A DNA stretch of 64,000 nt from the NCBI GenBank assembly GCA_009712635.1, contig WASS01000020.1, forward strand, positions 1,311,208 through 1,375,207, written 5' to 3'. Position 1 is the stretch's first letter, and the number at the start of each line of letters is the position of its first letter. The notes under the pieces are model-generated. The model made no database searches. It was not told the DNA's origin and was given only the letters and a program-made list of their open reading frames with translations. Origin of the DNA: Hungatella sp. (lineage in GTDB: Bacteria; Bacillota; Clostridia; Lachnospirales; Lachnospiraceae). Made by a program: the position numbers and the translations under genes. Positions 49,139 through 63,955 of the stretch are shown piece after piece.

Positions 49139-49693
49139 TTACAATTCCTCCCGAAGCTGATACCCTATCTTTTCTCTCTTCAGGCTTTGGTCCAAAAGCG
49201 GCATTTCGACGGATAATTTCTTCCTCCACTTTACGGCGGCCAGCATACTCCTCCTTTCTCGCGGACTGCTATCCTGGCAATTATCGGTTATAATATCTCC
49301 GTCGGTGATAAGCGTTGCATATTTGCAGGAAATATAGGACTTTACCTCTTTCAGCACCTGCCGGAATTCTCTGATCCACCCTTCCGCAGAAAAAAATAGT
49401 TCCCAATTACCGTCTGTTCTTTGATTCAACAGGATATGTGTTTGTACGGGTTCTTTTCTGATACACCCAACACCTCCTTTGCGATTTCTGCTATCTCCTT
49501 CCGAAAGCCCCGGCTGTCCTTTGGGCTTAAGTTTGTCTCCCGTGACTGGTCTTACACCAGCTAGATTAGTACCATGCCTGGCACACAAGCGAAAGCCAGT
49601 CACGAATTGTGACTGGCTTTCGCTTATTGGTTTGACTTTCATCTCTGAATCGCTATATCCTCCGCCGGATTGATTCCATCGCGGGATTTTCAT
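49139..49693 (-). CDS. Unrecognised ORF, probably a fusion or remnant
   Basis: An open frame of 184 codons that overlaps the collagen-like gene's stop by 4 bp. The N-terminal third runs through a perfect inverted repeat (49587-49625) and is not protein-like. The C-terminal part (about residues 85-184, e.g. TDGNWELFFSAEGWIREFRQ) looks like real coding sequence of an unknown family. Likely a remnant joined to intergenic DNA. I do not claim a product. Confidence 0.3.
   Translation of the reverse strand: MKIPRWNQSGGGYSDSEMKVKPISESQSQFVTGFRLCARHGTNLAGVRPVTGDKLKPKGQPGLSEGDSRNRKGGVGCIRKEPVQTHILLNQRTDGNWELFFSAEGWIREFRQVLKEVKSYISCKYATLITDGDIITDNCQDSSPRERRSMLAAVKWRKKLSVEMPLLDQSLKREKIGYQLREEL
49587..49625. 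terminator. Perfect 17-bp inverted repeat after the collagen-like gene
   Basis: AAGCGAAAGCCAGTCAC and its exact complement with a 5-base loop, 65 bp after the collagen-like stop. No T tract follows on the minus strand, so it may be a terminator of another kind or a recombination-related structure. Confidence 0.5.
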
Positions 49694-50478
49694 TCCACCC
49701 TCAAAGTAATGACGTCACCGGCAGAAAGGGATAAGATACATGAATCCGAAAATTCACCGGTAGCCGACAGTGTGGGAACGGACGTAGAGACGGCCACGAC
49801 TCCGTTGACCGCGAGAGAAATCACCGCGTCGACGTTATTCGAGATGACGGTCGTATAGTCGATAATATAATTCCCGGTTTCCAAAATTGTTATTTCCGTT
49901 ATCCCCGGGGTATGACTGATACCGACAAGCGGCCCGTTATTGGTGAACGGTATATCTCCCGGCAGCAAAACCGCTGATTCCGATTGGGCGGTATACGGAG
50001 TGTATAAATACCCATAAACGGTGATGCCTGGGCCTGTCGGTCCTGTCGGACCGGTGGGGCCCGTCGGCCCGCCGACGTCGTCCTCGGAAACCACCAGAGA
50101 GCCCTTGAGCGGTACCTGGGCTGAGAAATAGACAACCGCCGTGCTAATATTCACAAGGGATACCGAAGTCGGAGCGCTTATCACATCAATGATCCCAGTG
50201 CCGTACACTTCGCCCGTCTTGATGGGAGAAGAGCCGGCCAGGTAATCCCCCTGGGAGGAGGACAGCGCAAAAGCCGTGCCATTCGTGGAGGGGGATGCTT
50301 GGGTCGCAAGCCACCAATTTATGAGATATCTGCCGTTCTCCTGAAAGGTGATAACACCTGTGACCGGCTCGTAATCGATATTTCCGGCTTTGTAAACAAT
50401 GGCATCAAAGAGCACATTGGCATTAGCATCCACTGATGTCGAGGTATTCAGCTCCAATTGCAGTGCAGTATTACCCAT
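49690..50478 (-). CDS. BclA-like collagen-repeat spore-surface protein
   Basis: A 262-residue protein without signal peptide. An N-terminal beta-sandwich (about 1-135) with GRYLINWWLATQA is followed by a very short collagen segment (GPTGPTGPTGPTGPG, about 137-151). A C-terminal jelly-roll domain (about 155-262) has ILETGNYIIDYT, as in BclA C-terminal trimerisation domains. Lack of export signal fits exosporium proteins made in the mother cell. GC-rich, unlike neighbours; divergent from the SBBP gene. Confidence 0.8.
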   Translation of the reverse strand: MGNTALQLELNTSTSVDANANVLFDAIVYKAGNIDYEPVTGVITFQENGRYLINWWLATQASPSTNGTAFALSSSQGDYLAGSSPIKTGEVYGTGIIDVISAPTSVSLVNISTAVVYFSAQVPLKGSLVVSEDDVGGPTGPTGPTGPTGPGITVYGYLYTPYTAQSESAVLLPGDIPFTNNGPLVGISHTPGITEITILETGNYIIDYTTVISNNVDAVISLAVNGVVAVSTSVPTLSATGEFSDSCILSLSAGDVITLRVE

Positions 50479-50646
50479 AAACTTTACCCTCTCGCCCCTT
50501 CCGGCTATAAAATTATGTCACCTGTTCCTATAATTATATTATGCCACGGGCGTTGCGGTGTGACAAGATGCGCCTTTGCGACATATGATAGATTAATTTA
50601 TTTCAAAAATAAAATAGGCTTATAAGCCGAACATGAGGTGTTTTAT

Positions 50647-52704
50647 ATGCCAGACACAGCGATAAAAACTTTTAATAATAGCCTCCTGTTTATCCCTAAT
50701 GAAGGGCAGGCGGATTCCCGCGCGAGATTTTGCGCAGCAGTGCACGGAAGCAACTTCTTTTTTCAGGATGACCGGATCACCTCCGTCCAATACGCCGGGT
50801 TTTCAGGAAAATCCGCCGCGGGCGCGGCGTTGGAGCTGTCGTTTATCGATGCAAATGCCGGGACAGCACCGGAGGGATATGAGCAAAGTGCGGGACATTT
50901 TAATTATTTCACAGGCGGTGACTCCACGAAATGGCGCACACATCTGCCTGCTTACGGAAAACTGAAATACGCGGCCGTTTGGGACGGAGTGGATCTGGAG
51001 CTTGAGGGAAGCGCCGAGGGTCTCAAATTCAACTGGCTGCTTCAGTCAGCCGACCGGGTTGGTGCGATCCGTCTCCGCTGGGAGGGCGCCAAGAGCCTCA
51101 GTATTTTGGACGACGGCAGCCTGTGCATCAGGCATGACCTCGGGGCGCTTACGGATCCAAAGCCTGCCGCCTGGCAGGAGATTGGCGGTAAATCCATGCC
51201 CGTCGACTGCGCATACTGCCTTAACGGCGGCACTGAGATCAGTTTTGAGCTTCGCGGTCCGCACGATCCCACAGCGCCACTATTAATCGATCCTGTAATC
51301 CAGTACTCCACCTATCTCGGCGGCAGCGCCACTGACTTCGGCAACGGCATAGCCGTGGATGGAGAGGGGTGCGCCTATGTGTCCGCCTCGACTTTGTCCG
51401 CAGACTTTCCGGTGACACCTGGCGCCTTCCAGACGACGCTCGTCGGCAGAACCGACGTGTTTGTCACAAAATTTGCAGCCGACGGCGCGAGTCTTGTCTA
51501 TTCCACGTATCTCGGCGGGAATGGCAGCAATATCGGGTTCTCAATCGCCATCGACGCGCAGGGCTGCGCCTATGTCACGGGCTATACCAACGCCACGGAC
51601 TTCCCGGTGACGCCCGGCGCCTTCCAGACTGCTTACGGTGGCGGCACGGACGACGCGTTTGTCACGAAGCTCGCGCCCGACGGCGCAAGCCTCGTCTACT
51701 CTACCTATCTGGGCGGCATAGACTACGATTCGGGCAACGACATCGCGGTGGACGCGCTGGGGTGCGCTTATGTGGGAGGCTTCACGTATTCCGCCGACTT
51801 CCCGGTTACGCCCGGCGCTTTCCAGATGGTATACACCGGTACGGGCGACGCGTTTGTCACCAAACTTGCGGCCGACGGCGGAAGCCTCGTTTACTCTTCC
51901 TACCTGAACGGCAGCAAGAACGCGGCCTGTCTCAACATTGCGGTGGATTTACAGGGCTGCGCCTATCTCACGGGAAACACGAATTCCACCGACTTCCCGA
52001 TTACGCCCGGCGCTTTCCAGAAGACGTACGGCGGCGGCGTGGACGACGCGTTTGTCACGAAATTCTCAGCCGACGGAACAAGCCTCGTCTATTCCACGTA
52101 TCTCGGTGGCGATCTGGTGGATTCCGGCTCTGGCATTTGCGTGGACGCGGAGGGCATTGCCTATGTGACAGGATCTACTTCTTCCGCCAATTTCCCGGTG
52201 ACGCCCGGAGCCTTCCAGACGGCAATCGCCGGAGACGCGAATGCGTTTATTACTAAGCTGGCGCCCAGCGGCGGAAGCCTCCTAGCCTCGACTTACCTGG
52301 GAGGCAGCTTAATTGATTCAGGCAAAGCCATCACCGTGGATATGCGGGGCCACGTCTATGTGGCAGGAAGCACAAACTCCGATAATTTCCCAACAACTCC
52401 CGCGGTACTACCCTCCCAGCTGCAGGGAGACTCGGATGCTTTTGTGAGTATCCTCACTCCGGACCTTAGGCGGCTTCTCGTTTCCTATTATCTTGTTGGA
52501 AGCAGATCGGACTACGGGGACGGCATCGTGATCGGGGGCGACGGCGGCGTTTATGTGGTCGGGGGCACCTCTTCCACAGACTTTCCCGTGACGCCCGGCG
52601 CTTTCCAGACAACGTACGGCGGCGGAGATTCAGACTGTTTTTTGACAAAAACTGCCTTTGCGTTTTATGAGAAAGTCTCAATTGTGATCCAGGGAATTCT
52701 TTAG
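50647..52704 (+). CDS. SBBP-repeat beta-propeller protein
   Basis: A 685-residue protein from the ATG at 50647 (GAGGTG 7 bp upstream; a GTG at 50638 lies inside the RBS). Residues 1-215 resemble the DUF7948-type domain found before SBBP repeats (FIPNEGQ, GHFNYFTGG, VWDGVDLE). Seven repeats of about 65 residues follow, each with YSTYLGG, a G-AYV strand and DFPVTPGAFQ, consistent with a seven-bladed propeller. No signal peptide. GC-rich. Next to a collagen-like spore protein, so a spore-surface role is likely but unproven. Confidence 0.85.
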   Translation: MPDTAIKTFNNSLLFIPNEGQADSRARFCAAVHGSNFFFQDDRITSVQYAGFSGKSAAGAALELSFIDANAGTAPEGYEQSAGHFNYFTGGDSTKWRTHLPAYGKLKYAAVWDGVDLELEGSAEGLKFNWLLQSADRVGAIRLRWEGAKSLSILDDGSLCIRHDLGALTDPKPAAWQEIGGKSMPVDCAYCLNGGTEISFELRGPHDPTAPLLIDPVIQYSTYLGGSATDFGNGIAVDGEGCAYVSASTLSADFPVTPGAFQTTLVGRTDVFVTKFAADGASLVYSTYLGGNGSNIGFSIAIDAQGCAYVTGYTNATDFPVTPGAFQTAYGGGTDDAFVTKLAPDGASLVYSTYLGGIDYDSGNDIAVDALGCAYVGGFTYSADFPVTPGAFQMVYTGTGDAFVTKLAADGGSLVYSSYLNGSKNAACLNIAVDLQGCAYLTGNTNSTDFPITPGAFQKTYGGGVDDAFVTKFSADGTSLVYSTYLGGDLVDSGSGICVDAEGIAYVTGSTSSANFPVTPGAFQTAIAGDANAFITKLAPSGGSLLASTYLGGSLIDSGKAITVDMRGHVYVAGSTNSDNFPTTPAVLPSQLQGDSDAFVSILTPDLRRLLVSYYLVGSRSDYGDGIVIGGDGGVYVVGGTSSTDFPVTPGAFQTTYGGGDSDCFLTKTAFAFYEKVSIVIQGIL
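51290..52660 (+). repeat. Seven tandem SBBP units (about 195-200 bp each)
   Basis: DNA for the seven propeller units. TTCCCGGTGACGCCCGGCGC-like text recurs in most units. The last two units are the most diverged (for example NFPTTPAVLP). Confidence 0.75.
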
Positions 52705-53864: not shown

Positions 53865-54277
53865 AATATTCTCTCCTTTAAATATATTATTTTATAAGCG
53901 CTTATACCTATAAATAATGTTTTTTATTGTAAAGTGTAAACAAAAGAATATTATAATCTGTTCAACCGTTCCAGAATAACGTTCCAGGTATTTAAAGGTG
54001 ACGGTTTCAGTGAGGCTACCGCCTTATGGTAAGCAATATTATAGGGAATTATGAACCAACGGTAAAAAGATATCGTCAACGATTTCCATAACTCTTTCGT
54101 TAGAAATTGGCTCATGGGTTGTGAGAACTTCATACCGTTCTCCATACCACCGATGTACAGAAACGTTGGTTCTAATCTGATTAACAGAGGCAGGCAATGC
54201 ACCATTCAAATATCATTCTTTTGGGTAAATCATTGTCCCAAGCTGTCTTGGTAACAACAACAGGCTATAGCTTCCAG
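53865..54277. other. Intergenic region with possible decayed gene
   Basis: On the minus strand around 54030-54200 the frame reading ASVNQIRTNVSVHRWYGERY and HEPISNERVMEIVDD looks protein-like but has stop codons at both sides. A competing 84-codon frame overlaps it. Neither can be supported as a gene. Confidence 0.35.
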
Positions 54278-55105
54278 TCATTGTTTTGGTTTATAGCTTG
54301 CTTCCTTAAATAAGGATGCTAGTACTGCTACTCTAGCATAAGATAAATCTCCAACAGCCCCATATGCAGCAGTGGTTAATGATATATTCGAATAGCCTTC
54401 ATATTCAACATTTTTTTCAATCTTCACTTTACTTTTCCAATCTTCATAAAATATTGCTTTGTTAGAATCATCAAAACTAATAACCTTAAATGTAAAATGT
54501 ACACGCATATAATTAGGCCCATCCAAAAATACGATTGAAGGTTCTGCCTTTACAGTACCAACAATTTTAACTTTATTCTCTTTTGCTTCTTTAATATAAT
54601 TAGCTACATCCTCATTCAGTGCAGCTGATTTATTCATCACAGAAGTCAATTTGTTTCCCCACTGTTCATCTAGTGTTGTATAGTCTACATTTACGATCTG
54701 ATAAACGAATTGCTCTACATATTCAGCCCATTTATCAATGTCTTCCTTTTTATAGCCGTCTAATTCTAAAAACTGAACTGGCGTTAGGTTTGAATTATAG
54801 CTTTTGTATTCGTGCTTCAAATCATATAACTCATTAGGCGCATCGGCTAATATATAAGGGAAATCCTTATAGTTTTCAGGCAAATCAGTTGTTCTAATTG
54901 CTCTGCCCCATGGGTCTTTTGGTGCATTTTTCACTTGTTCTGCTGTTGATAATGCTTTATCGTCAATAGGGAGTTTTTCTCCTTGGCTTCCAACCGCCAT
55001 TTTAGCCATTTCTTGACGTGTGATTTCTGCCAATGCCATCTGTGTTCCTGAACTGCTTAGAAGTAAAGAAACTATCATGATGGCTGATATACTACGTTTT
55101 TTCAT
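54278..55105 (-). CDS. Secreted hypothetical protein
   Basis: A 275-residue protein from the ATG at 55105 (AGGGGTG upstream). Signal peptide MKKRSISAIMIVSLLLSSSG with cleavage near ALA-E. The mature part is polar and helical at first (residues 30-160), then beta-rich (about 170-275). Not recognised. It is the only clearly secreted protein in this section besides the TPM protein. Confidence 0.75.
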   Translation of the reverse strand: MKKRSISAIMIVSLLLSSSGTQMALAEITRQEMAKMAVGSQGEKLPIDDKALSTAEQVKNAPKDPWGRAIRTTDLPENYKDFPYILADAPNELYDLKHEYKSYNSNLTPVQFLELDGYKKEDIDKWAEYVEQFVYQIVNVDYTTLDEQWGNKLTSVMNKSAALNEDVANYIKEAKENKVKIVGTVKAEPSIVFLDGPNYMRVHFTFKVISFDDSNKAIFYEDWKSKVKIEKNVEYEGYSNISLTTAAYGAVGDLSYARVAVLASLFKEASYKPKQ

Positions 55106-55253
55106 TTTATACACCCCTGTTTTATTCTCTTTTTATACTGATGAATCATATATAGCAAAATATTATATCTTCTGTAATTTCAATCTTTAGATCTTTATTT
55201 AAAAAATAATGTATTATTAGTTTATTTAGTTCTCCTTCTTGCTGATTTTCTTC

Positions 55254-56826: not shown

Positions 56827-57296
56827 CTAGTCTTTTCTCCTTGCCACTCAAATATATAAGTTCAAATTTGTCTTTCTCATAACTTATTAAATATAATGGG
56901 AAGCTACAACACCTTGCAAACTGGAAGTTGTAGAGTTCTTTACATAGATAAAATATCAAAATTTATGCTATCGCTGAGCGAACAAACTAAAATTTCTTAT
57001 TCAGCACGAAATACGATTGACTAAGAATCCGAAGTTTTATTTTATCACCTAGATAAATAACTTCAATGCTTTATTTCATTTTATGACGAATTGTAAAATT
57101 ATTCAATTAAATAATCCCAATTCATTATTCTATTATCAGATTCTTCTCCAAAATGTAAATTGGATATTTATTACCATAAATATCTTTATCCACATATGGC
57201 TTTCTAAACATAATGGGAAGCCCAGTTTAACTTCTCAGTTTACTTATTTTGTGGTCAAAATAATGATATTTAACTTATACATTACCCAGATTAATT
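56827..57296. other. Intergenic region with repeat copy 1
   Basis: No gene. A 7-bp hairpin CTACAAC/GTTGTAG lies near 56903-56930. The main content is the first copy of the 149-bp repeat. Confidence 0.5.
57048..57196. repeat. 149-bp repeat, copy 1 (downstream of APH)
   Basis: About nine in ten bases match 58502-58650 in direct orientation, including a run TTATTCTATTATCAGATTCT and TTATTTCATTTTATGAC. The two copies bracket the APH gene. Confidence 0.75.
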
Positions 57297-58229
57297 TCAA
57301 CCCCTATATTTTTTTAGTAGTGGTATGAATGTCTCATTGCACCATTCTGGCAATCTATTGCAAAACCAATCTTCGTCAATCCACGATTCGTAATGTAACA
57401 CTATGCCCAATAGAATTTGTAATGCAAAATAGATATCAATTTCATCAGTATTAACCTTGCAACCAGTTGTTTCTTCATAGGCTTTTACTATACTAATTCT
57501 ATAATCTGCATCATCTACAAAGCAATAAATGCTACCAAAATCCAGCATAGCAGTACTATATCCGAATAAAGAAAAATCGATCGGTATTAGCCCATCATTA
57601 GTAATTAAAATATTTGATAATGATAAGTCCGAGTGCACAAGAATACATTCAGCTTTTGACTGCTTTAATTTATCACCAATTAACTCCAAAGAATCGTTCA
57701 TGATTGCAAAATATTTATTATCAAGTCGTTCATTCTTAAGCAAATTAAAAAGAATCTCTTGTAACCTTTGACATAAATTCTTATCATATATAAAATAGTA
57801 ATCGGCGTTGTAGCCTTTTGCAGCCATATGAACCTTTCCCAGCATCTCACCCAATTTATACCCAAGTGCTTCGGACAATTCACTTTTGTCTAGAATTCTG
57901 CCCGGAAGCCATGTAAGCATTGTTACAACAGTGCCGTCCCTTAACACTGTAACAAGTTCATTATCATTATTCTTAATTGGTGATTGCACATACAAGCCAC
58001 TAGATTTTAGATGTTCTAAAAATTTGAGCTCATTTTCACGATTTTTAATAAAATCGATATCTTTATAAAACGGTAATGTGGTAAATCCGGTTTTTGATTT
58101 ATGTATTCTTAACAGAAACTTATCGTCAATGCAGTAAATCATATTTTCATTATGGCGGATTAACTCAGCTTTTGCACCTGTTAAACCATATCGATGCAAA
58201 GCATCTCCTAATATATCTAGCTCACACAT
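57297..58229 (-). CDS. Aminoglycoside phosphotransferase (APH/choline kinase-like) family protein
   Basis: A 310-residue kinase. Brenner motif VHSDLSLSNILI (about 199-210) has the catalytic Asp, and IPIDFSLFGYS (about 216-226) the metal-binding Asp. The N-lobe contains a DDKFLLRIHKS strand with a candidate ATP-binding Lys. It could modify a drug, a sugar or a small molecule; the classic resistance specificity cannot be deduced. Flanked by direct repeats, so it may move as a unit. Confidence 0.8.
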   Translation of the reverse strand: MCELDILGDALHRYGLTGAKAELIRHNENMIYCIDDKFLLRIHKSKTGFTTLPFYKDIDFIKNRENELKFLEHLKSSGLYVQSPIKNNDNELVTVLRDGTVVTMLTWLPGRILDKSELSEALGYKLGEMLGKVHMAAKGYNADYYFIYDKNLCQRLQEILFNLLKNERLDNKYFAIMNDSLELIGDKLKQSKAECILVHSDLSLSNILITNDGLIPIDFSLFGYSTAMLDFGSIYCFVDDADYRISIVKAYEETTGCKVNTDEIDIYFALQILLGIVLHYESWIDEDWFCNRLPEWCNETFIPLLKKYRG

Positions 58230-58501
58230 ATTATACCTCTGCTAATATTTAATTTTTTATTTACAATCATTAGCATAAAACCTACTCAGTTTCCCATTAT
58301 TGCTATAACATACTCTATTTTCTTTTCCTTTACCCAAAAGCCCCGTTTACATATTATTTAAAGTTCTAGATAATTACTTACTACATTAGAAATATTATAT
58401 AAATATAACAACCTTATATGTCGTTCCAGCCCCCGTAGTTATTGCATAATCTTCGACACTGAGTTTTCAAAAATATCACCCTCTTCAAATATTTCTAACG
58501 A

Positions 58502-58650
58502 CCTAAATAAATAACTTCAATACTTTATTTCATTTTATGACAAATTGTAAAATTATTCAATTAAATAATCGTAATTCATTATTCTATTATCAGATTCTTC
58601 TCCATAATTTAAATCAGGATATTTATTACCCTAAATATCTTTATCCTCAT
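58502..58650. repeat. 149-bp repeat, copy 2 (upstream of APH)
   Basis: Direct copy of 57048-57196. Its left neighbour (58425-58500) also resembles 63812-63905, so the full repeat is longer on this side. Confidence 0.75.
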
Positions 58651-58977: not shown

Positions 58978-59193
58978 CCCTATGTCATCCGCGGAAGAGC
59001 CAAAAAAACGGGGCTAAAAATCGCATTTTTTAACCCCATTTTTTGCTCATTTTTTAGTCAATAGCCACAACATGTTGTGGTCTAACCCCTGTTTTTCTTA
59101 TCCAAACCACAATACGTCATCATTATCACCGCTTCAACATGTGTTGATGCTGTAATACAGATTACTGAAAGGCGCACTTTGTCCTTGGCGTAG
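58978..59193 (-). repeat. Element C: 216-bp structured repeat ending in CCTTGGCG
   Basis: Begins CCCTATGTCATC and ends CCTTGGCGTAG. Contains a GGGG...CCCC hairpin (about 59017-59038), the perfect palindrome CCACAACATGTTGTGG (59065-59080), GTCATCATTATCAC at offset 138 and a CAACA-TG-TGTTG hairpin. Element E matches at the same offsets. A 58-codon minus-strand frame (59082-59258) crosses it, reading ...STHVEAVIMMTYCG..., and E keeps STHVETVIMMTRC. Confidence 0.75.
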
Positions 59194-59291
59194 ACATTAA
59201 ATTGACTAATAGCATTAGGAACATCACCTGCTAGTAACATCACACTGCCCATATTCATTAATACCTACAGGAGCCTCCGTCAATCTGCTTC

Positions 59292-59813
59292 TTACTCTTC
59301 ATAATTCTCTGCATTTAATCTTAACCTATAGAACTGTTGAAGCCATTCACTTTGCTCTTCCATCGTTTCTTTCAGCTTTCTGAGGCTTCTTTTTCCAACT
59401 CGTCTATCTAACACAGCAAACATTTTTTCTAATGGATTTTCAGATTGAATGCTGTCCTGAATACTTTGATTACGGTAATTCTCCAATGACTTACAGAATT
59501 CATTATCCGTATATTCCTGTCTTGCTTGCATTGAAACAGAATCCATGAGTGCCCAAAACTCATCCCAGTATTCGCCTATACCAAAGTGATTTGAATTCTT
59601 TTTATATCCTTTTTCAATAAAATAAGTGTTCACTGTTTCCCAAGAGAACTGCTTCACCAGTTTGTTATCAATGTAAACTTCGAAAATATGACACCCATCC
59701 ATGCCAACATAAGTTGTACAGTTATACCGAACCCGTCCGTGCAAACTGTCTGCAAGCATTTCCTGCTCAAGGTATTTTCGCATTCCACTCCAAGATCCTA
59801 ATATTTTTCCCAT
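59292..59813 (-). CDS. SF0329-family-like hypothetical protein
   Basis: A 173-residue cytosolic protein starting MGKILGSWSGMRKYLEQEM with GAGGGGAG upstream. It has a small beta region (GRVRYNCTTYVGMDGCHIF, about 26-44) and a charged helical C-terminus ending in QQFYRLRLNAE. This pattern fits the SF0329 family, function unknown. A broken piece of this gene lies at 48380-48430, so related copies existed in the genome. Confidence 0.65.
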   Translation of the reverse strand: MGKILGSWSGMRKYLEQEMLADSLHGRVRYNCTTYVGMDGCHIFEVYIDNKLVKQFSWETVNTYFIEKGYKKNSNHFGIGEYWDEFWALMDSVSMQARQEYTDNEFCKSLENYRNQSIQDSIQSENPLEKMFAVLDRRVGKRSLRKLKETMEEQSEWLQQFYRLRLNAENYEE

Positions 59814-59935
59814 TCAACTCCCCCTATAAATCCAAATCTAGCGGCTTAAACTTTTCCAGCAGATATACCATTTTAAAAGTTATTTCTCCACGCCTGTCAT
59901 AATTCCAATGAATAGTAAGTTCTTATTCTATTTCA

Positions 59936-60946
59936 TTATTCCTTTTCATGCCACATTTTAATTACCTTTTCAACTTCAGCAATTAACTGTTCTTTATCCG
60001 GAATATAATAAGTATATTTTGATGCGAAAATATTACTTGATAGGCCACCTAATGCATATTCAGCAGTCAGAGCATCTTTATCTGTACAAAGAATAATGCC
60101 TATCGGTTTATTATCATTTTCATCATTTACTTCATTCTCATTATAATTTAAGTACATATTCAACTGACCTGCTGCTTCTGGCATAAGTTTGGTTGTTTTT
60201 AATTCTATGATAACATATGACTTCAAAGGCTTATTATAAAAAACCATATCTGCATAATAATGGGTATTATTTATTGTTATTCTCTGCTGTGATCCTACAA
60301 ACATAAAACCTTTCAATTTGCTCCACGAGTGCTTTTTCTAAATCACTTTCCAATACTGGTTTATCTTCAGGTATCCCAAGAAACTCAAATACATATGGAT
60401 CCTTAATAATATCTTTAGGTTCTGTAATTTCAATACCCTTTGTTGCTAACCTCAATACTTCCTGTCTATTTACCTCACCTTTTGATAGCAACAGTCGTTC
60501 ATATAACGAGGTATTAATTTGCCGTTTTAATTCTCGTACAGACCAATTTGAATTAACTGCTTCTCTTTCATAAAAACCACGTTTATCTTTTTCTGCAATA
60601 CTTAATAGTTCGCAATAATGAGACCAACTCAATTTGCCAGACAGCGTCTGGCATTTTTCATAATTCATATAAAATGATCTCATATTCTGCAAATTGGACC
60701 GGGAAAATCCTTTCCAAATTCAGCAGTCAATGTCTTAGAAAGTTGTTTTAGTGTTTGCTCCCCATACTCAGCTCGAATACTATCATTTTGCTCGTAACGA
60801 ATTATAATTTCCCCTATCTTCCAATAGGAAATTATTAATTCGTTATTAACTTCTCTTGCAATATTTCTCCTTGCTGTATCAAGAATACTTCTTATTTCAC
60901 CTACCAGCGGTTTAATAATTTTATTATCCATACTTTCAACTCCTTT
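59936..60946 (-). pseudogene. DUF1016/YhcG-type PDDEXK nuclease gene with two frame lesions
   Basis: Three frames together give a full YhcG-like protein. The N-terminal helical domain begins MDNKIIKPLVGEIRSILDTA. The middle has NMRSFYMNYEKC and NWSVRELKRQI. The C-terminal nuclease domain contains YADMVFYN and VIIELKTTK. The first break, near 60700, is a one-base loss in a T run after EFGKDF. The second, near 60320, is a short deletion that removes the expected FLLELGKG stretch and shifts frame. Three products could be made but a normal enzyme cannot. Confidence 0.85.
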
Positions 60947-60958
60947 CTTAAAATGATT

Positions 60959-61196
60959 CAACAATTTTCCGCTTTATTTTCATGCTGTTTCAATGGCTTG
61001 ACTGGTCCATGAATATTGCTATTTTCGACAAATTTCGACACAAGTCTCACAATGCCTTGAAGCGACAATAATGATGTCGTCAGAACCTGGTGGTTCCTTG
61101 GCGGAAGGCTCTTTTTCTTAAAGATCAATCAAAAACCTTTCATTTTTAAATTTCCACATCCGCACTTTCATATTGAAAGCATCATTATATACAGTT
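60959..61196. other. Gap upstream of the DUF1016 pseudogene
   Basis: Contains element D. A 53-codon minus-strand frame beginning with TTG (about 61120-60959) reads SLQGIVRLVSKFVENSN and may be only the shadow of the repeat. Confidence 0.4.
61028..61103. repeat. Element D (TTTCGACACAA...CCTTGGCG)
   Basis: Starts ACAAATTTCGACACAAGTCTC and ends CCTTGGCGGA. Shares its first 26 bases with element B. A GACAATAATGATGTCG stretch inside forms an imperfect hairpin (GACA...TGTC). Confidence 0.6.
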
Positions 61197-61730
61197 TTAT
61201 ATAACAGACGATATTCCCGAAGTAAATAGCATATCTATCAAGTTATATAATTCATCTGGGGGCAAATCTTTTTGCCTGCGTTGCCAGAGACGAAGCAGTG
61301 AAAATGCAGTTGAGACTTGAAACTCTAATAAATATGGTGTTACTGAATTATCTTTAGGGAAACAATATTTCTGTGCATCAGAAAAAAATTCACCTTTCAA
61401 CTTTTCACTAAAGCGGATATTACCATAATCACCTAATAAAGCATTTAGGCATGCTCCTTTTTCCTCGAAAAGTAGGAGTATATCCCGTGTATCAGCTTGC
61501 TCTTTGTTTTTCATCTTCTCCCGGATATAATCCAATATATCGTTTTCCACGAAGCTAAGCAAATCGTAAACATCGGTAAAATACTGATAAAAGGTACTTC
61601 GGTTATATCCAGACTTGTTTGTAATTTCCTGTACTGTGATTTTCTCAATCGGTTTTTGGCAATAAAGTTCACAAAAAACGCCGATAAGTGATTGTCTGGT
61701 TTTTTTCGTTATTTCAGGCTGTTTTTTCAT
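61197..61730 (-). CDS. TetR/AcrR family transcriptional regulator
   Basis: A 177-residue regulator from the ATG at 61730 (AAGGGG upstream), beginning MKKQPEITKKTRQSLI. HTH ITVQEITNKSGYNRSTFYQYF at about residues 28-48. Divergent from the flavodoxin gene, with a perfect 7-2-7 inverted repeat overlapping that gene's -10 box. Confidence 0.9.
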   Translation of the reverse strand: MKKQPEITKKTRQSLIGVFCELYCQKPIEKITVQEITNKSGYNRSTFYQYFTDVYDLLSFVENDILDYIREKMKNKEQADTRDILLLFEEKGACLNALLGDYGNIRFSEKLKGEFFSDAQKYCFPKDNSVTPYLLEFQVSTAFSLLRLWQRRQKDLPPDELYNLIDMLFTSGISSVI

Positions 61731-61760
61731 TTCTTGCCCCTTTCGCAAGTAATGATGAAT

Positions 61761-61789
61761 TTGAAACAAAGTCGTATAATTCATTATAC
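61761..61789 (+). promoter_or_regulatory. Flavodoxin promoter with TetR operator
   Basis: TTGAAA (61761-61766), 17-bp spacer, TTATAC (61784-61789). The inverted repeat GTATAAT-TC-ATTATAC (61774-61789) covers the spacer end and the -10 box, so binding there would block polymerase. Confidence 0.7.
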
Positions 61790-61828
61790 AACACGTTGTC
61801 TTATAGTCAAGATGTGAGGAGAATAAAA

Positions 61829-62254
61829 ATGAAAATAGCTGTCAGGTATCAGTCCATAGGAGGCAATACAAAATCAGTAGCGGAAGCTATCGCGGGTAAA
61901 GTAGGTGTTAAAGCAGAGCCGATTACTGTACCGCTTAATGAGCCGGTTGACTTTTTATTTATCGGTGGCGGCGTATATGCGCATGGTTTAGACGATTCCC
62001 TAAAAAGTTTTTTGGAAAATTTAGATGCGACAACAGTCAAAGTCGTGGCTGCTTTTTCGACTGCCGGAGCTATGGATGGAGCAATAAAAATAGCTTCTAT
62101 CGTTAAGGAGAAAGGGATACCTGTGCATGGCGAAACCCTGCCTATGAAACTCGGTGTGCGCAATCATGGTTATTTTGTCCATAAAGGTTTTATCGAATTG
62201 ACCGACAAACAGCTTGCCGCTGTTAATGATTTCGTAAAAAAGGTGATTGGATAA
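61829..62254 (+). CDS. Flavodoxin family protein
   Basis: A 141-residue protein from the ATG at 61829 (GAGGAG upstream); the longer frame is not needed. FMN phosphate loop MKIAVRYQSIGGNTKSVAEAI (in part, about 2-20), IGGGVYAHGLDDSLKSFL (about 51-68) and AFSTAG (about 81-86). The loop reads SIGGNTK in place of the usual S/T-x-T-G-N-T, still able to bind FMN. Likely an inducible redox carrier or quinone/nitro reductase partner under TetR control. Confidence 0.85.
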   Translation: MKIAVRYQSIGGNTKSVAEAIAGKVGVKAEPITVPLNEPVDFLFIGGGVYAHGLDDSLKSFLENLDATTVKVVAAFSTAGAMDGAIKIASIVKEKGIPVHGETLPMKLGVRNHGYFVHKGFIELTDKQLAAVNDFVKKVIG

Positions 62255-62288
62255 CGGTTTTGCATAGCTACAAGAAGTTCATATCGCC

Positions 62289-62327
62289 ATAGGGTCACGG
62301 TAAATCAACCGTGACCCTATTTTTTTG
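62289..62327 (+). terminator. Terminator of the flavodoxin gene
   Basis: ATAGGGTCACGGT (62289-62301) pairs perfectly with ACCGTGACCCTAT (62308-62320), followed by seven T. Confidence 0.9.
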
Positions 62328-62667
62328 CAAAAAATCCATAAAACAGCTTGACAATATTCATCTGAAACAGAACCTTTGTGACTGAAAGCAATATAATTTC
62401 CACAAATCACGAAGCGTTACAGAAAGTAACTCTACGCTTTATCTATGGAACAAATATTCCAGGTATACAGAGTGCTGCTGCCTCCTAGAATGGGCGTAAA
62501 GCCTAAGAGTTCTCATAAAGCACACTGTCCTATTTGAGTTTTTGCCATGATTATATCATTCCTCCTTAACTGTAATAATTTATAAATTTCAACTACAAAT
62601 CAGCATATATTTTCTTATTGATTTATAGCTACAAAATTCAGTTTTCCAGCTATCATCACCGAAATCA

Positions 62668-62882
62668 CCCTATGTCATCTAAGTTTTGTCCTAAAAATCA
62701 GGGCAAAAATCGGGCATTTTTTAGCCTGGTTTTTGCCCGTTTTTTGCATTGCAACCACAACATCTTGTGGTTGCAGCGGATTATTTATCGTTTTGGTCAC
62801 AACGTGTCATCATTATCACAGTTTCAACATGTGTTGAGTGGGTGAAAAAGATTCCAAGAAAGCACAGCAAGGCCTTGGCGTG
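62668..62882 (-). repeat. Element E: 215-bp structured repeat ending in CCTTGGCG
   Basis: Second copy of element C: CCCTATGTCATC at the start, GGGCAAAAAtC/GgTTTTTGCCC hairpin, GCAACCACAA-catc-TTGTGGTTGC hairpin (62751-62774), GTCATCATTATCAC at offset 138, CAACA-TG-TGTTG hairpin, CCTTGGCGTG at the end. Confidence 0.75.
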
Positions 62883-63817: not shown

Positions 63818-63955
63818 TTCAGCTCCCATAGTTATTACATAAACTGTGACACTTAATTTCCAATCATGTCACTCTTTTCAAATGTGTTATTCTAGCAACC
63901 TCAAATTAATAAATTAATACTATATTTCATCTTGTGACAAATTGTAGTATTAGAA
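63812..63955. repeat. Third, diverged copy of the 149-bp repeat family
   Basis: Matches 58425-58560 in order: CCATAGTTATTACATAA, GACACT, CACTCTTTTCAAAT, then AATACTATATTTCAT and GTGACAAATTGTA. It covers the start region of the membrane protein pseudogene, so the repeat may be a duplicated gene-upstream region. Confidence 0.5.

Follow-up and report, generated by a model that had tools for sequence, protein, structure and literature searches.

We analysed a stretch of 64,000 nucleotides from Hungatella sp. (contig WASS01000020.1, positions 1,311,208 to 1,375,207 of the forward strand; hereafter the window), in which an initial annotation had pointed out two related intergenic elements, C and E. 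Our analysis indicates that these elements are very probably attachment-site junctions of integrative islands, arrays of islands included, that are inserted by large serine recombinases (LSRs) at the 3′ ends of rlmD/rumA-type genes. In the mechanism that we propose, an LSR would insert an island at the HVE codons, shortly before such a gene ends; the island would carry a conserved sequence at its end, here called the P-arm, and a substitute rlmD C-terminus at its start, and its integration would thus swap the RlmD tail. Insertion beside rlmD or into existing junctions would build arrays of units, all in the same orientation, between rlmD and the native downstream DNA, and several of these units appear to carry anti-virus defence genes. 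C would be the outermost junction, in which the last P-arm and a target-type 3′ end stand beside native DNA, and E an internal one. What we observed directly is a pair of empty and occupied sites for one island type, a consensus of the island end, the orientation of these ends and their clustering behind rlmD, and LSR genes in some of the arrays.

Composition and occurrence of elements C and E

The initial annotation had read C and E as a structured element in which spacing and pairing are kept while the sequence between the anchors is very different. The coordinates and anchors were all confirmed, with CCCTATGTCATC at the left end and CCTTGGCG at the right end of both elements, GTCATCATTATCAC at offset 138 in each, the hairpin CCACAACATGTTGTGG and, 3′ of GTCATCATTATCAC, the CAACA-TG-TGTTG hairpin. 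The sequences between them, however, differ less than had been stated: C can be aligned to E from end to end (216 columns) with 66.7% identity, and, judged on this alignment, the two are plain homologues more than sequences alike in structure alone. They are also not the only copies in the window, as a third site of the right-hand type is present (Table 1).

Sequences matching C were found in 23 of the 41 genomes searched, namely in 22 of 25 from the genus (its own genome counted) and in 1 of 16 from other families; the genus is taken to be Lacrimispora in all counts given here, although a few members bear other names, and the 41 genomes are its 25 together with 16 from outside it. This occurrence is far above chance, and the chance local duplication that the initial annotation had named as a possibility fails to account for it. 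No match to C (query of 263 bases) was found in plasmid and phage records.

When 31 longer copies, out of 54 collected, were aligned with their flanks, the common part spanned positions 1-164 and the right-hand sides varied from locus to locus. The 216-bp unit is made up of two separable modules: positions 1-164 occur beside rlmD genes and with other right flanks, and positions ~141-216 also occur alone elsewhere. On the minus strand, the common part starts with HVEAVIMMTYCG and is preceded in many loci by ...VYVSCGPETLARDLEYFKKKGYEAKKAWGVDMFPWTN, a methyltransferase tail. Read on this strand, each element is an island end joined to an rlmD/rumA 3′ end (VEAVIMMTYCG...) with a terminator-like stem. 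The island end, or P-arm, is the right-hand side of ~65 nt in C, E and other copies and is bounded by CGCCAAGG and TCAACACATGTTGA.

The minus-strand peptide STHVE[A/T]VIMMT, correctly noted before and taken as a sign of a possible small protein or coding remnant, is the C-terminus of an RlmD-type methyltransferase. When 14 distinct target ends were compared by codon position (25 of the 26 rows, after removal of a gapped one), differences numbered 242, 154 and 241 at positions 1, 2 and 3, position 2 being the most conserved, with no clear synonymous bias; the other two frames contained stops in all 14. The coding reading holds for the origin of the peptide and not for the synonymous bias expected of it. 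A coding remnant had also been expected to go without stem covariation, and here the covariation score exceeded its controls while the count of doubly changed pairs did not (see below).

Over 33 sites the junction shows dyad symmetry about a single centre, where 0.50 of the positions pair; no other centre tested exceeded 0.36. Two slightly different places are indicated for the crossover: the dyad centre is the CA located 5 nt before the GA of GTTGA, and the pair of genomes described below points to GTTGA. Dyad symmetry at the core accounts for the CAACA-TG-TGTTG hairpin; GTCATCATTATCAC is the target-side arm, and its mirror image is seen on some island ends. For comparison with the attC sites of integrons, which have paired R and L boxes, the site alignment shows one arm with one dyad at the core. 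Of the earlier suggestion of a folded-DNA recombination site, the recombination site can be kept; what the data favour is a double-stranded site with dyad symmetry, used by an LSR, over folded single-stranded DNA.

Three loci in different genomes (L013, L016 and L021) share ~1.9 kb of left flank at 97-98% identity, reaching the left edge of the element or close to it. Their target-side halves are far more divergent than this flank, which looks like an exchange of the half at GATGACATAGG; an open reading frame of 1031 aa lies ahead in L013.

The rlmD site, its arrays and the serine recombinases

Insertion at rlmD can be followed in a pair of genomes. In G016, an uninterrupted rlmD runs straight into the common part and represents the empty site. 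About 7.6 kb of G016 from the common part onward aligns to G024, which holds an extra ~1.9 kb there. The site is occupied in G024 by an island of ~19.5 kb (1384053 to 1403542) at the same codons, with flanks 99.2-99.9% identical to G016 and new joints at GTTGA. This island gives rlmD a new tail (HVETVVCLSRKNPDDRIEIDLSLDELDI) and places a recombinase-like tail, SWDKEST, ahead of the old one. At locus L028, an intact serine recombinase frame of 565 aa runs into the same core, with a tail like that in G024. RlmD tails stay open reading frames, except in the L105/G023 gene, which is apparently frameshifted.

The window genome has a full rlmD-type gene, recognised by the NCBIfam rumA/RlmD model with 375 bits (cut-off 184). 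A segment like the target-side half of C lies directly behind rlmD in G016 and others, and positions 54138-55161 of the window match, at 91-93%, the G016 DNA located 1.1-2.4 kb downstream of rlmD. As these positions are native DNA behind rlmD, we interpret C as an island's outer junction, and its island-side half is an attR-like junction with this native DNA. The rlmD of the matching type borders one edge of contig C11, and contig C7, which contains the window, ends within the island; C probably belongs to the rlmD on C11. The best match of the target-side half of E is the segment behind a second rlmD-family gene of its own genome (L010; 76.7% over 146 nt). At the start of C11 behind rlmD (L073:1-430), the sequence looks tRNA-like, as two halves of a tRNA parted by an insert; ARAGORN reported 0 tRNA genes there.

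Island ends were searched with a profile from 22 sites and then with a sequence-only model from 33 sites. At E<=1e-4 the latter gave 95 P-arms in the 41 genomes, found in 20 of the 25 genus genomes and in 3 of the 16 others. On eight large contigs with 21 rlmD-family genes, 36 of 49 P-arms are located at most 60 kb downstream of such a gene on the same strand (0.85 expected), a count that is partly circular, the model having been trained in part on sites picked near rlmD, and whose binomial P assumes an independence of sites that fails. It used 66 rlmD rows, short matches (the scars themselves) and the rows of genomes without P-arms having been set aside, and all 21 full rows of the eight contigs were retained. 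The cleaner test of clustering comes from outside the genus, where 20 sites were found at E<=1e-6 in 9 of 199 other genomes of the family. Twelve of these sites have an rlmD-family gene on their contig, and every one of the 12 lies downstream of it, on the same strand and within ~25 kb (distances computed by hand).

Five P-arm sites are present on the window contig: C, E, the third site of the window, C7:1380805 and C7:1390062, the last coming from the first profile only (22.5 bits). The arrays of G005 and G008 have 6 or 7 P-arms each, with units of ~1-12 kb between successive P-arms, and the units of P-arm arrays are in the same orientation. Between 11 arrays, 21 homology blocks were compared, and just 5 of their 39 internal ends are 12 bp or less from a core, against an expectation of 0.25 (P 0.0005), four of the five being the right end of one unit in four comparisons. 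Most ends lie away from the cores, so ordinary rearrangement also changes the arrays.

One recombinase family, LSR-A (~420 aa, with resolvase, recombinase and zinc-ribbon domains, PF00239, PF07508 and PF13408), was found at >=58% identity in 6 of the 41 genomes, that of the query included, and in all six a P-arm lies 4.2-10.4 kb downstream of it on the same strand. LSR-A is the first gene behind rlmD in G005, G008 and G025 (broken in G025); in G003 and G007 (broken in G007), a P-arm precedes its start by 135-158 bp. The region in G003 (contig L097, L. xylanisolvens DSM 3808) aligns with that of G005 from the core onward, so that the same LSR-A unit stands after a P-arm in one genome and after rlmD in the other. 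LSR-B, the kind seen in G024 and L028, is a distinct family. More distant LSRs, single, paired or triple, occur near P-arms in G009, G011, G015 and G022. When LSRs of all kinds are considered, nine in these four genomes have a downstream P-arm at a distance of 0.4-19 kb, and two in G002 have one at 34-35 kb; 19 of the 37 LSR genes listed have no downstream P-arm, as judged against 18 of the 95 P-arms. LSRs probably act on the P-arms, and units without an LSR gene would move in trans.

Pairs or triplets of recombinases were seen on G009:C25, G015:C83, G022:C45 and G011:C1, followed on the same strand, 8-19 kb further downstream, by a P-arm that lies 98-135 kb behind an rlmD-family gene. In the window genome (G000:C20:57115-64028), a P-arm at 57115 is found ~5 kb ahead of two serine recombinase genes (62045 and 63759), the first of which is 21-26% identical to full-length LSR-A proteins. 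Among six viral-collection contigs with a P-arm match, at least four have LSRs near the P-arm, on the opposite strand in one of four; L116, L119, L120 and L121 carry LSR genes together with an island end of the same family.

Besides the circularity of the clustering count and the small share of block ends near a core, several points weigh against islands of this kind as the source of C and E. Thirteen of the 49 P-arms are outside the 60 kb behind an rlmD, four of them 73-102 kb behind one. The clean pair of G016 and G024 concerns LSR-B, which is 21-22% identical to the four full-length LSR-A compared; the recombinase frame of G024 is in pieces (a 496-aa frame and a 113-aa tail, with another open reading frame between them), and the sequence-only model found no P-arm in G024 at E<=1e-4. 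In G001, LSR-A is 17 kb behind rlmD, and a P-arm ahead of the gene was not found. No recombinase gene was recognised beside C or E, and no LSR-A match was obtained in the window genome at E<=1e-40, suggesting that the array there may be immobile. This genome has 10 PF07508 matches, 9 of them among the matches listed, and the rlmD-side end of its island is unassembled. The join of C7 to the rlmD on C11 is absent from the assembly, which breaks inside the island. Finally, ~40 bp separate the conserved CGCCAAGG from the dyad centre, and the half-site of an LSR is expected nearer to that centre.

Alternative explanations and related systems

The alternative that survives best, even if unlikely, is the simple decay of integrative and conjugative elements (ICEs) of the streptococcal kind at rumA; C and E would then be att sites left behind, and small units would not be exchanged. 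In streptococci, ICEs that have a single serine integrase insert in rumA, and their integration exchanges the 3′ ends of rumA and of the integrase gene (PMC4701971). The same target gene and the same tail exchange are found in the genus in the G024 island and at L028, so the type does exist there, but C, E and the arrays carry the CGCCAAGG P-arm and G024 does not. The trait of an integrase gene ending inside attR is seen at L028; in G024 the frame is in pieces, and at C and E no such gene was recognised. Moreover, the short units and multiple P-arms of the G005 and G008 arrays are not obviously those of decayed ICEs, LSRs are already found near CGCCAAGG P-arms, and the P-arm arrays have another recombinase and another end sequence than the streptococcal elements.

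It is very improbable that the conserved unit is a structured intergenic RNA, one of the readings of the initial annotation, or a repeat bearing a terminator, spread through the genome by copying. The first hairpin is, in gene orientation, a 22-bp stem with a T-run, and an A-run before it and a T-run after it on both strands mean that it could act either way. Folding is strong on both strands, with z -3.6 (C) and -5.0 (E) on the minus strand and about as strong on the plus strand (-2.9 and -5.7). Over 26 distinct target-side copies, 86% of the cells of the first stem are paired, and for the two hairpins jointly the value is 87% versus at most 61% with partners slid. The covariation score of 0.140 was matched by 0 of 500 shuffles and fell to at most 0.068 when slid, and the cells with change on both sides were also matched by 0 of 500. 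The number of pairs changed on both sides (8), however, was equalled or exceeded in 17 of 500 shuffles, and sliding the partners gave 4-11, with two slid versions higher (9 and 11); the case for conservation of the stem rests on the paired cells and the covariation score, leaving out this count. Conserved pairing is what stands of the RNA reading. The stem sits directly behind the rlmD-type stop codon, half of each element is outside it and is a locus-variable RlmD C-terminus or island end, the position of the element follows rlmD, and no Rfam match was obtained in the window at the gathering threshold, all of which argues against a free RNA. From its position, stem, T-run and paired cells, the structure is predicted to be a terminator of rlmD-strand transcripts, possibly bidirectional; a simple terminator scan flagged the E stem (62701-62738) on the plus strand only, with nothing at C and nothing on the minus strand.

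A small non-autonomous transposon with CCCTATGTCATC and CCTTGGCG as its ends, either like a miniature inverted-repeat transposable element (MITE) or a single-strand element like IS200/IS605, would fit the dispersed copies, the hairpins and the sharp left edge (L013, L016 and L021) but is scarcely credible, as the outer ends are not inverted repeats, the two halves are found separately and the G016/G024 pair shows one crossover at the internal core and not at the outer ends. The free RNA element, the MITE and the single-stranded DNA element were all rejected for the reasons given for each.

Islands inserted by LSRs at rlmD are of a kind already known from the staphylococcal and Enterococcus cassette chromosomes (SCC/ECC) at rlmH, the rumA ICEs and the accretion of cis-mobilizable elements (CIMEs); the target, the recombinase and the island-end sequence differ from those of SCC/ECC. 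SCC/ECC use CcrAB and are located at the rlmH 3′ end, with dyad att sites, direct repeats and variable cargo, and a remnant with att sites has been described (PMC6222049). The rlmD islands share these traits, being LSR islands at a methyltransferase 3′ end, with dyad att sites, direct repeats, variable cargo and remnants that have att sites, and with a target gene that keeps an open tail. In contrast, their target is rlmD/rumA and not rlmH, LSR-A scores 79, 64 and 51 bits with the CcrC, CcrB and CcrA models, versus NCBIfam cut-offs of 900, 900 and 700, and the rlmD island end has its own conserved sequence, with arrays that reach 6-7 sites. CIMEs are integrase-less elements that keep attL and attR and accrete in tandem at one gene end (PMC5704250), and a conserved island end with defence arrays at rlmD is not among the features described in the part of that paper available. 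Compared with CIMEs so described, the window contig shows five P-arms in a genome where LSR-A was not detected and the island end on the rlmD side is not assembled.

Integrons, whose recombinase is the tyrosine recombinase IntI, line up units in one orientation behind a fixed site, with a recombination site closing each unit. The rlmD arrays share the same-orientation units behind a fixed site but differ in that the recombinases examined in them are serine recombinases and the fixed site is the tail of a housekeeping gene. We tentatively raise the possibility that, in Lacrimispora and in some other genera of its family, the tail of rlmD plays the part of an integron that works with serine recombinases: small defence cassettes, each ending in one conserved arm and often without a recombinase of their own, would be taken up, lost and shuffled in trans through a cassette-borne LSR. 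In the literature searched, which covered few subscription papers and no bioRxiv preprints, defence-unit arrays at rlmD or a P-arm island end were not described, and nothing was found on Lacrimispora with a serine recombinase. Compared with the known systems, the rlmD defence-unit arrays look like a new form of a familiar kind of island.

Cargo, other features of the window and significance

The sites and units of the window are listed in Table 1. Cargo on the window contig includes the DUF1016-type nuclease pieces with SF0329, the TetR-like regulator with the flavodoxin-like gene, and ZacA, ZacB and ZacC with a KAP/PifA-like gene. The P-arm of E ends a further unit to the right, across and beyond the window edge, with HD-CE/HSP90-like (822 aa) and AAA-like (611 aa) genes. 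The 822-aa gene matched RT_UG24 in PADLOC, and its identification as a reverse transcriptase was rejected, Pfam giving HD-CE and HSP90-like domains. Units of G005 carry genes of LmuA/LmuB type (Lamassu), a TIR-like gene with GajA/GajB (Gabija) and others. Among 18 array proteins, which were hand-picked and therefore say nothing on enrichment, and some of whose labels come from shared domains alone, 14 match a PADLOC model at E<=0.001, 9 of them at E<1e-30, and 4 have no match.

Table 1. Attachment sites, stems and units around elements C and E (positions in the window)
Feature	Position	Strand	Description
Element C	58978-59193		216 bp
C, target-side half	58978..59139	-	rlmD-type 3′ end (VEAVIMMTYCGLDKKNRG and stop, 59082-59084) and following DNA, ends at GATGACATAGGG
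C, terminator-like stem behind rlmD-type stop codon	58996..59049	-	fold z -3.6; 86% of cells paired over 26 copies
C, second hairpin CCACAACATGTTGTGG	59065..59080	-	6 pairs, 0/6 with both partners changed
C, island-side half (P-arm, CGCCAAGG...TCAACACATGTTGA)	59128..59191	-	63.1 bits, E 8.9e-17
Unit between third site and C	59192..61043	-	SF0329-family gene 59292-59813; DUF1016/PDC-S02 nuclease pieces 59936-60964
Third attachment site	61044..61104	-	P-arm, then target end of the type RHCETCVEICRK and stop; 47.5 bits, E 7.0e-12
Unit between E and third site	61105..62667		TetR-like regulator 61197-61784 (-; match of 22.6 bits, below the Pfam cut-off of 24); flavodoxin-like gene 61829-62254 (+; matches weak, below cut-offs)
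Element E	62668-62882		215 bp
E, target-side half	62668..62829	-	rlmD-type 3′ end (VETVIMMTRCDQNDK and stop) and hairpins; minus-strand fold z -5.0
E, island-side half (P-arm)	62818..62881	-	55.1 bits, E 2.7e-14

A second dispersed intergenic repeat, possibly a MITE-like element, is located at 57047-57195, 58493-58650 and 63890-63952. Its first two copies are 93% identical and bracket an APH-type phosphotransferase gene (57297-58229); a query of 158 nt gave 6 matches in its own genome and matches in 9 of the 24 other genomes searched. Positions 49690-52704 hold divergent genes encoding a protein with the collagen-like repeat GPTGPTGPTG and a 688-aa protein with repeated YSTYLGG...AYVTG motifs, and a protein of the latter type is found again to the right, inside the array (C7:1377473-1378165).

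If the units do move in trans, the rlmD tail would offer a second, unrelated route to integron-like cassette shuffling. One recognisable arm marks the unit boundaries, which makes the genes separable unit by unit, and the unknown genes between two P-arms are candidates for new defence systems. The exchange of tails is also a possible reason for the variation of the RlmD C-terminus between related genomes. Even under a minimal reading, islands like SCC would clearly be present here at a different rRNA methyltransferase gene.

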